IMG/VR virus record: IMGVR_UViG_3300042907_000531
Coordinates: 1 to 61,067 of that record
Reading direction: 5' to 3' (one strand)
Origin: a virus
Length of the DNA stretch: 61,067 nt
A model generated the notes under the pieces. It was not told the origin of the DNA. It saw nothing but the letters and a program-made list of their open reading frames with translations, and did no database searches. Shown piece after piece: positions 44,649 through 47,794 of this stretch (positions are counted from its first letter, which is position 1; every line of letters starts with the position of its first letter). The translations under genes and the position numbers were made by a program.

Positions 44649-44725
44649 GGTAGGGTGCCTGATAGCTTGGTAAAAGGTCGTGACTTATAATCGCGCTCAT
44701 GTGGGTTCGACTCCCACCCCTACTA
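44649..44725 (+). tRNA. tRNA-Ile (anticodon UAU)
   Basis: 77 nt. A 7-bp acceptor (44649-44655 with 44718-44724, first pair G-T), a short D stem, an anticodon stem CGTGA/TCGCG with loop CTTATAA (anticodon TAT), and a T stem GTGGG/CCCAC. CCA is not encoded. Reads AUA, a codon common in this phage. Confidence 0.85.
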
Positions 44726-44730
44726 CTTAC

Positions 44731-44803
44731 GCCATAGTAGACCAACGGCAGAGTCAATAGACTTAAAATCTGTGTAGTGTGGGTTCGAATCCCATCTATG
44801 GCA
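44731..44803 (+). tRNA. tRNA with anticodon UAA (Leu) and short variable loop
   Basis: 73 nt. The acceptor GCCATAG/CTATGGC is perfect; the anticodon stem ATAGA/TCTGT holds loop CTTAAAA (anticodon TAA, leucine UUA); the T stem is GTGGG/CCCAT. The variable loop is only about 5 nt, whereas bacterial tRNA-Leu has a long variable arm. Discriminator base A fits leucine. Confidence 0.8.
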
Positions 44804-44807
44804 TTAT

Positions 44808-44880
44808 GATTTCGTAACTCAATTGGTAGAGTAGCGGACTTTTAATCCGTTAGTTATGGGTTCAAGTCCCGTCGAAATCA
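44808..44880 (+). tRNA. tRNA-Lys (anticodon UUU)
   Basis: 73 nt. Acceptor GATTTCG/CGAAATC perfect, D stem ACTC/GAGT, anticodon stem GCGGA/TCCGT with loop CTTTTAA (anticodon TTT), T stem ATGGG/CCCGT. Reads AAA. Confidence 0.88.
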
Positions 44881-44884
44881 CTAT

Positions 44885-44958
44885 ATCCTTGTAGCTCAGT
44901 TGGATAGAGCAATAGCCTTCTAAGCTATTTGTCAGTGGTTCGAGTCCACTCAGGGATG
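44885..44958 (+). tRNA. tRNA-Arg (anticodon UCU)
   Basis: 74 nt. Acceptor ATCCTTG/CAGGGAT (one T-G pair), D stem GCTC/GAGC, anticodon stem ATAGC/GCTAT with loop CTTCTAA (anticodon TCT), T stem AGTGG/CCACT. Reads AGA, the main arginine codon in many genes here. Confidence 0.88.
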
Positions 44959-44974
44959 TTGAAAGGAGTATCAT

Positions 44975-45773: not shown

Positions 45774-45847
45774 AAGACACAGACATCATTGCGGCGATTG
45801 CGCCCGATGCCTATCTTGCTTGGATGCGTGAAAAAAATAAACCTTGA
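45770..45847 (+). CDS. 25-residue peptide, GC-rich island
   Basis: Starts with GTG overlapping the previous stop (GTGA) and has GAGGAGGAC just upstream, an unusually strong ribosome site. Sequence KDTDIIAAIAPDAYLAWM suggests a short helix. Its stop codon lies within the -35 box of the promoter that follows. It may be a truncated remnant of a longer gene. Confidence 0.4.
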   Translation: MKDTDIIAAIAPDAYLAWMREKNKP

Positions 45848-45871
45848 CAATTGAACTCATACTGGTATAAT
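45844..45871 (+). promoter_or_regulatory. Consensus sigma-70 promoter
   Basis: TTGACA (45844-45849) and TATAAT (45866-45871), both perfect, with a 16-base spacer. Expected transcription start is at or next to the ATG at 45878, so the message would be leaderless or nearly so. It is the only perfect pair I found in the window. Confidence 0.75.
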
Positions 45872-46359: not shown

Positions 46360-46436
46360 GCGATGATATCGTGGTGATGTTTACAAGTGGAATTTTTCCA
46401 CAAATAATTAGGAAATCTTTTAAGGAGACAGCATGA
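46356..46436 (+). CDS. 26-residue peptide before PEP-CTERM gene
   Basis: Starts with ATGAG overlapping the previous stop and ends with ATGA on the next gene. Its middle contains a perfect GTGGAA-TTT-TTCCAC hairpin (46388-46402). GGAGGAC lies upstream of its start. It may function only as a coupling leader for the secreted protein gene. Confidence 0.35.
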   Translation: MSDDIVVMFTSGIFPQIIRKSFKETA

Positions 46437-47089
46437 TTAAGAGTTGCATGATCGGTTTGCTTTTTGCTACAAGCGCAAGTGCAGAGTTTGTTGTTGTTAA
46501 TAACGCAGTTGTTGATACAACTGGCTTCTATTCAGATGCTTTTAGCTCCAATGGTGCATATACCTATGCCCAAAGTGGTGCTCAAGGTTTTAATTTAGAG
46601 GACTCGTATACGACATCATCACTTAAGTGGTGGGGTTCGATGAATGGTTTTAACGATCAGGGTATTTCAAATGTAAACGCATTCCAGATTGTTGTGTGGT
46701 CTGCTGACTTTAGTAATCAGGTAGTAAGCACTACAATTTCGCTTAATGATCTTGACATCTTCAAGACTGGTGACTATAGCTTCTTTGGTCAACCTGTCTA
46801 TGAGTTTTCTCTTCCCTTTAGCTACCAACTTTCAGCTGGTAGTTACTATATGAACATCGGCGCGTCTATTAAAGACCCAGTTGGCGATCAGTTTGTCTGG
46901 TCACAAGGTCAAGCAGTTAATGACTTTTGGTTTACCGACGATAACAGTCAGCACAATTGGGGTGATTGGAGAAAGCTTCCAACCTTTATTGGAAATACAG
47001 CTGGTGGTTCGTTTGTAATGACTGCTCCTACTCCGGGTACCATTGCACTCTTGGGTATTGCTGGTATTGTTTCGAAGCGTCGTCGATAA
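46433..47089 (+). CDS. Secreted protein with PEP-CTERM-like sorting signal
   Basis: 218 residues. A signal peptide (SCMIGLLFATSASA, cleavage near residue 17) leads into a beta-rich domain with aromatic and acidic residues. The C-terminus is PTPG, a hydrophobic span (TIALLGIAGIVS) and KRRR, the three-part order of PEP-CTERM signals that exosortases process; PTPG replaces the usual PEP. Such proteins are normally bacterial and reach the cell surface or extracellular matrix. Ribosome site AAGGAG. A hairpin follows, so it may be expressed as its own unit. Confidence 0.75.
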   Translation: MIKSCMIGLLFATSASAEFVVVNNAVVDTTGFYSDAFSSNGAYTYAQSGAQGFNLEDSYTTSSLKWWGSMNGFNDQGISNVNAFQIVVWSADFSNQVVSTTISLNDLDIFKTGDYSFFGQPVYEFSLPFSYQLSAGSYYMNIGASIKDPVGDQFVWSQGQAVNDFWFTDDNSQHNWGDWRKLPTFIGNTAGGSFVMTAPTPGTIALLGIAGIVSKRRR

Positions 47090-47102: not shown

Positions 47103-47124
47103 CCCCCTTCAATCGTGAAGGGGG
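47103..47124 (+). terminator. Perfect 9-bp hairpin after PEP-CTERM gene
   Basis: CCCCCTTCA (47103-47111) pairs with TGAAGGGGG (47116-47124) around an ATCG loop. No T run follows and the thyX-like start is 14 bases away, so attenuation or mRNA protection is as likely as termination. Confidence 0.65.
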
Positions 47125-47137
47125 CTTGAGGAAACCA

Positions 47138-47794
47138 ATGATTCAATATGTAGATCACATGGGTTGTGATGAAGCCGTCTGTGATGCGGCTAGAGTCAGT
47201 ATGAACAAGTCAGCTGATCTGTTTACTGTAAGCCAAAACGAGAGACTGATTGGCTACCTTGCAAAGCACAATCACTGGAGTCCATTCTCACATTGTGTAC
47301 TAAAGGTTAGAGTTTCGGCTCCAATCTTTATTGCACGACAGCTTGCAAAACATCAAGTTGGTTTCTCATGGAACGAAGTTTCTCGTCGGTATGTATCCGA
47401 TGCTCCCACCTTCTTTGTTCCAGATAACTTTAGAGACAAGGCTGACAATGTTAAGCAAGGGTCAGCATCGACAACCAATCTTCATTCTCAGCTTTATAAG
47501 ACAAAGCTTGAGAACTTGTGTAATCATGCAGCAACTATCTATCAAGAGATGTTGGATGATAACGTTTGTCCTGAACAAGCGAGAGCAATTCTGCCTCAAG
47601 CAATGATGACAGATTGGATCTGGACAGGATCTCTATATGCGTGGTCTCGTATGTATAATCTTCGTGCTGATCCACACTCTCAATTAGAGGTTCAAGAATA
47701 CGCTGCTAAAATTGGAAACCTATGCTTCAAGTATTTTCCTATATCATGGAGAGCACTAACTAACTATGGCTTTGAACCTGAGTCATCTCGTTAA
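47138..47794 (+). CDS. thyX: Flavin-dependent thymidylate synthase
   Basis: 218 residues, the ThyX length. The signature region ARQLAKHQVGFSWNEVSRRY (67-85) corresponds to the RHR-x7-S motif, but has Lys-His-Gln in place of RHR, as in a subset of phage and bacterial ThyX. It makes dTMP from dUMP using folate and FAD. Starts at ATG 47138 with GAGGAAA upstream and overlaps the deaminase-like gene by 29 bases. Confidence 0.88.
   Translation: MIQYVDHMGCDEAVCDAARVSMNKSADLFTVSQNERLIGYLAKHNHWSPFSHCVLKVRVSAPIFIARQLAKHQVGFSWNEVSRRYVSDAPTFFVPDNFRDKADNVKQGSASTTNLHSQLYKTKLENLCNHAATIYQEMLDDNVCPEQARAILPQAMMTDWIWTGSLYAWSRMYNLRADPHSQLEVQEYAAKIGNLCFKYFPISWRALTNYGFEPESSR

Follow-up and report, generated by a model that had tools for sequence, protein, structure and literature searches.

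A phage gene family that most likely uses the exosortase route of Phycisphaerae hosts

The DNA analysed here is IMG/VR virus record IMGVR_UViG_3300042907_000531, positions 1 to 61,067, and the whole stretch of 61,067 nucleotides is referred to as the window. It carries a gene for a secreted 218-aa protein with an exosortase-type C-terminal tail, in a frame that starts with ATG at 46433, stops with a TAA ending at 47089 and is preceded by a Shine-Dalgarno sequence (AAGGAG, 46422–46427) 5 nt ahead of the start codon. The gene and the parts of its product are as follows.

46433–47089, + strand: coding sequence of the 218-aa secreted protein with exosortase-type C-terminal tail, based on the open frame, AAGGAG, homologues and the ratio of non-synonymous to synonymous substitution rates (dN/dS).
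46433–46483, + strand: signal peptide MIKSCMIGLLFATSASA, read from the sequence, with predicted cleavage before E18; A-x-A before E or D is kept in homologues.
46484–47026, + strand: mature beta-sandwich domain with motifs WWGS, GDQFVWSQG and NTAGG, based on AlphaFold2 and distant Phycisphaerae homologues.
47027–47086, + strand: C-terminal tail PTPGTIALLGIAGIVSKRRR with a PxPG motif, a short hydrophobic stretch and a basic end, a pattern found at C-termini in Planctomycetota metagenome-assembled genomes (MAGs) and in the viral family.

The N-terminus has a basic n-region, a hydrophobic core and an A-x-A motif (ASA, then E) in the style of a type I signal peptide; the A-x-A pattern followed by E or D recurs across full-length homologues, and inspection of 32 aligned homologues identified an N-terminal signal peptide. 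The mature domain was modelled as a beta-sandwich with a mean predicted local distance difference test score of 86.8 and a predicted template modelling score of 0.85 (AlphaFold2). The tail (APTPGTIALLGIAGIVSKRRR) terminates exactly at the stop codon and runs from P-T-P through 13 hydrophobic or small residues to K-R-R-R, the general anatomy of a sorting tail, with a proline motif, a hydrophobic segment and a basic cluster near the stop. Across 32 homologues, its columns A, PxP, L, G, AG and RRR vary little or not at all. The mature part is low in basic residues (KRH 3.4 vs 12.0%) and cysteine (0 vs 1.0%), as described for PEP-CTERM proteins (PMC1569441), and high in serine (12.4 vs 8.0%) and asparagine (8.4 vs 5.7%), with threonine not raised (6.7 vs 8.1%). 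Written as a degenerate DNA pattern, the tail matched once in the window and in 0 of 100 shuffles; the gene and its tail are real, and the tail is no chance product. The first-pass annotation had described a secreted phage protein with a signal peptide, a beta-rich domain and a PTPG, hydrophobic and KRRR end, which the open frame, the homologues and the predicted structure confirm.

Homologues are encoded on 54 viral contigs, nearly all tail-bearing (52 from two IMG/VR scans, plus L113 and L115 from a scan with the tail pattern). The 52 IMG/VR homologues share 52–100% identity with the window protein, and signal peptide, domain and tail are retained in the family; a few contigs, L039 and L040 among them, are truncated or carry a frameshift. 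Over 15 homologue pairs dN/dS was 0.07–0.36, mostly below 0.2, indicating purifying selection. The family had no match in 50,697 annotated phage records, and searching PHROGs and PDB by sequence gave no match to the 218-aa protein. The arginine methyltransferase model PRMT_C (PF22528) scored 17.9 bits against a gathering cut-off of 27 (E 0.003, 82 residues) and was taken as a chance match.

Most of the loci fall into three groups, with four more (L016, L037, L052 and L053) beyond them. Group A (the window, L002, L003 and L029–L034) comprises T7-like phages that encode an RNA polymerase (<30% identical to the nearest listed records) and a T7-type primase-helicase; in them the tail-protein gene adjoins thyX, an order conserved in L003 and L029–L034. 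Group B (17 loci) comprises distant podoviruses with the gene immediately ahead of a terL homologue, and group C (23 loci) DnaB/DnaG/RuvC phages with the gene directly 3′ of a ribonucleotide reductase gene (detailed for L042). Between groups, the tail protein is 59–69% identical and the linked genes 27–57%; within group A, the L029 copy is 66% identical to that of the window, with most neighbouring genes at 72–91%. Three group A copies cluster with two group C copies (support 99/99), and a constraint keeping group A together was rejected (approximately unbiased test, p-AU 0.014). Because group A monophyly is rejected and protein identity is out of step with that of linked genes, gene exchange between the phages is indicated; judged from sequence comparison, three or more unrelated phage backgrounds carry the gene, which has evidently moved between them. 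No tyrosine integrase was found in 18 phage records, many of them fragmentary (other integrase types were not sought), which is consistent with a lytic life and in line with the first-pass description of a lytic phage. Exosortase was likewise not found in 21 phage records.

A scan of 84,980 prokaryote species (257 Gb) for the tail pattern returned 21 matches, all of which sit 21–24 codons before a stop, and nearly all matched open reading frames (ORFs) that include their start begin with a stretch resembling a signal peptide. The record titles are Planctomycetota wherever named, mostly Phycisphaerae and mostly lake-derived, with four titled only 'uncultured bacterium'; among the named records, the PxPG tail thus lies at C-termini of secreted proteins in this taxon and nowhere else. 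Exosortase (PF09721) was detected in 19 of the 20 genomes with the tail pattern and in 291 of 298 genomes sampled from the candidate class, and among control genomes in one archaeon only. Three host exosortases pass both TIGR02602 and TIGR04178, and the L075 exosortase gene adjoins a gene weakly matching polysaccharide export proteins. At the level of the candidate class, this supports the expectations that hosts would carry exosortase and that the tail narrows the host to exosortase carriers, with the tail confined to exosortase-bearing Planctomycetota. Taking tail and homologues together, the host is most likely a freshwater planctomycete.

Distant cellular relatives of the whole protein are found in the same class, as the first-pass annotation had proposed to look for. 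A model of the phage family matches full-length Phycisphaerae proteins in L083 (E 1e-16), L084 and L085 (both about 1e-10), and gives tail-only matches at the C-termini of many more class proteins; 66 of the 298 class genomes had a match, with up to ten scored per genome. A domain model lacking the tail still matches L083–L085 (E 9e-15, 5e-11 and 3.5e-9) and matched none of 12,080 shuffled ORFs, and the phage protein is therefore considered distantly related to tail-bearing host surface proteins. These Phycisphaerae proteins, a family with a WWG motif, share the distantly homologous beta domain and the same kind of tail, but are only 25–27% identical and lack the WGxW...NTAGG block that the phage copies carry between domain and tail. 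A pattern scan of genome contigs yielded no close cellular homologues.

Promoters were compared within 120 nt upstream of each ORF. A perfect TTGACA-16/17-TATAAT promoter stands 67–116 nt upstream of the start in 14 of the 23 group C copies, which are not fully independent because the loci are related; perfect sigma-70 promoters precede 3 of 236 other ORFs of the same loci. The spacers vary among several group C loci. Group B and most of group A have no such sites within 200 nt of the gene. These data suggest that in group C the gene forms a self-contained unit transcribed by the host, as it perhaps does also in the window, whose surrounding features are listed below.

45844–45871, + strand: perfect sigma-70 consensus promoter with extended −10, the sole perfect one in the window (0.12 expected by chance).
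46380–46408, + strand: promoter-like site TTTACA-17-AATAAT (10/12), directly upstream of the gene and weaker than the perfect group C promoters.
47103–47124, no strand assigned: 9-bp hairpin between the gene and thyX, read from the sequence, with a U-run on the − strand only.
47126–47794, + strand: thyX, the next gene downstream (PHROG 85, E 1e-62).

The perfect window promoter lies 560 nt upstream of the 46433 gene with one ORF between. Its −10 ends 7 nt before the ATG (45878) of the next ORF, so a transcript from it would either give that ORF no leader or serve genes further downstream.

A relaxed tail pattern identified six further viral contigs. Five of them (L145, L147–L150) encode a 150-aa tail-bearing protein unlike the first family, located between uvsX and dnaB, in phages whose ribonucleotide reductase, DnaB and UvsX are 57–70% identical to those of group C and which we take to be marine. 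The two copies compared are:

L148, 3194–3646: 150-aa-type tail-bearing protein between uvsX and dnaB.
L149, 11108–11563: the same type of protein in the same position.

The flanks of the two loci are 82–100% identical (100-nt windows), against about 35% at the DNA level for the body of the tail-protein gene, of which the start and tail ends are kept; the proteins are 35% identical overall. This pattern looks like replacement, or fast change, of a displayed cargo with the tag retained. In G+C content (0.44–0.46) and in the RRRRK ends these phages are similar to Phycisphaerae MAGs, L055 and L069 among them. Two other tail-bearing ORFs were observed. One is the C-terminal end of an ORF (VPVPSALALLAIAGISTNRRRK; L040, 2–205, + strand) at the edge of a group C contig that bears the main-family gene as well. 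The other is a tail-bearing secreted protein (L146, 4904–5914, − strand) on a 55-kb IMG/VR contig of 59% G+C, where two neighbouring proteins have no PHROG match and which may be host DNA or a provirus.

We consider it probable that the gene encodes a phage-made surface protein that is sorted through the host exosortase during infection, and most likely that the family as a whole uses the exosortase route of Phycisphaerae hosts. The signal peptide would carry the phage protein across the inner membrane, the Phycisphaerae-type PxPG/hydrophobic/Arg tail would deliver it to the host exosortase, and the exosortase would cut the tail so that the beta-sandwich domain reaches the envelope or matrix of the cell, with the phage supplying the cargo and the host the sorting machine. 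We infer these steps, including tail cleavage by exosortase and surface display, from the PEP-CTERM/exosortase system (PMC1569441) together with the present evidence.

Several observations weigh against this reading. Neither a prophage nor a CRISPR spacer nor a co-binned copy of this phage was found that would link it to a host; T7-like contigs co-binned in Phycisphaerales genomes showed only 30–40% TerL identity, no copy of the gene and no convincing tail, and speak neither for nor against such a link. The hydrophobic stretch of the tail is only about 13 residues long. In group B the gene lies by terL with no host-type promoter, and early expression is therefore not a general feature; selection that is purifying rather than diversifying disfavours a fast arms race for the main family. 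Finally, the window protein scores 9.0 bits against the PEP-CTERM model TIGR02595 (cut-off 16) and is therefore not assigned to it. Of the first-pass call of a PEP-CTERM-type signal, the exosortase type of the tail thus stands and the literal PEP-CTERM assignment does not: the window motif is P-T-P and that of homologues P-[TAS]-P, rather than Pro-Glu-Pro. The VPxxxP-CTERM and GVDTG-CTERM models give about 13 bits (cut-offs 29–30), and homologues show comparably weak matches to several C-terminal sorting models. TIGR02595 is, however, a poor yardstick for Phycisphaerae-type tails, since seven of eight host proteins bearing them also fall short of the cut-off and only L084 passes (17.2 bits); host proteins with the PxPG tail show P-A-P, P-T-P or P-S-P. 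The second phage protein, in L148, does pass (19.6 bits). The first-pass annotation would have been abandoned given both no match to any PEP-CTERM model and a host without exosortase; instead, TIGR02595 gave a match below its cut-off, a sister phage protein passed it, and exosortase proved near-universal in the candidate class.

Compared with the described PEP-CTERM/exosortase system (EpsH, Xrt; Haft et al. 2006, PMC1569441; TIGR02595, TIGR02602), the phage proteins likewise have a signal peptide, few basic residues and little Cys, and a tail in which a proline motif and a hydrophobic segment precede an Arg cluster at the stop; the candidate host class, too, has exosortase and numerous tailed proteins. 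They differ in being phage-borne without an exosortase, in having P-[TAS]-P-G in place of P-E-P and in the sub-threshold TIGR02595 score of the window protein.

Envelope proteins made by phages are already known, as are sortase-anchored LPXTG proteins encoded by temperate phages of Gram-positive bacteria. SasX is an LPXTG surface protein on the staphylococcal prophage phiSPbeta that is anchored by host sortase A (PMC8655729), and the present protein resembles it as a phage-borne protein bearing a host sorting signal and, presumably, processed by a host enzyme; unlike SasX, which is an unrelated protein of a temperate phage using a Gram-positive sortase, its route is of exosortase type and no integrase was found. 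The literature searched, outside which most subscription journals lie, contained no report of a lytic phage feeding cargo to a Gram-negative exosortase. The nearest case concerns a virus community from a hot spring, where the transferred cellular genes include some for TIGR03118 proteins, which have a putative domain for interaction with exosortase (PMC11003980). Host-sorted phage surface proteins are thus known through sortase A. If correct, the tail could be read as a host label for phages of uncultured planctomycetes, and the role of exosortase-sorted proteins would become testable through what a phage finds worth displaying.

The purpose of such display can be suggested with less confidence. 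Superinfection exclusion proteins are small phage-made envelope proteins, often early, and the present protein would be alike in being a small phage-made envelope protein, exclusion being a candidate function only; we know of no superinfection exclusion protein that uses exosortase. Early display altering the infected-cell surface, through superinfection exclusion or through changed cell contacts or matrix, is offered as a guess, somewhat short of an even prospect; early display that excludes rivals, the option we favour, fits the promoters, the exchange among unrelated phages with probably the same hosts, and the way the cargo of the second protein varies. Equally tentative is the broader suggestion that lytic Planctomycetota phages routinely carry swappable exosortase-display cassettes, of at least two families and in several lineages, that remodel the surface against rival phages, often under a dedicated strong host promoter, with the cargo swapped and the display tag constant, as a class of phage weapon.

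An unlikely but still serious alternative is a surface-displayed carbohydrate-binding or matrix protein that changes host aggregation, attachment or polysaccharide coat. It would accord with the distant host homologues, with the association of the PEP-CTERM system with exopolysaccharide (PMC1569441) and with the weak structural neighbours of the beta-sandwich, which include the carbohydrate-binding modules (CBMs) CBM35, CBM32 and that of FjoAcXE. However, Foldseek gave no PDB match at E 1e-3 or better for either model, and CBM-like folds are generic; a CBM identity is therefore not claimed.

We regard as improbable an envelope protein for lysis or release, secreted and tethered to the membrane by its C-terminal segment, which would help to breach the outer layers of the cell and be processed by exosortase only incidentally. 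T7-like phages often place lysis genes near terL, and the position just ahead of the terL homologue suits this role in group B only, whereas in groups A and C the genes around it are replication and nucleotide genes, and many group C copies have a perfect sigma-70 promoter to themselves; model and PHROG searches revealed no resemblance to spanins, holins or endolysins, and the tail is conserved to the level of host-specific residues. Less probable again is a decoy, an abundant tailed protein that would saturate the exosortase so that the host runs short of surface proteins of its own: the close resemblance of the tail to the host consensus and the strong group C promoters would suit it, but the 180-residue domain, needless in a pure decoy, is conserved as strongly as the tail. 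Least credible is a virion protein for decoration or adsorption whose tail merely resembles a sorting tail, since a weak structural resemblance to minor tail proteins and capsid-associated proteins of phages (generic tail and decoration folds in a structure search of a viral library) is set against a signal peptide, a gene that in groups A and C is not near the structural genes, and a tail pattern otherwise seen only at C-termini of planctomycete proteins.

The phage of the window is itself unusual among T7-like phages in its large genome (at least 61 kb) and very large proteins (3171, 1369, 1027 and 1002 aa), and is remote from the annotated collection (RNA polymerase and connector <35% identity). 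Four consecutive transfer RNA genes at 44649–44959 (Ile-TAT, Leu-TAA, Lys-TTT and Arg-TCT) fit the A+T-rich codons of a phage of 38% G+C within a more G+C-rich host.
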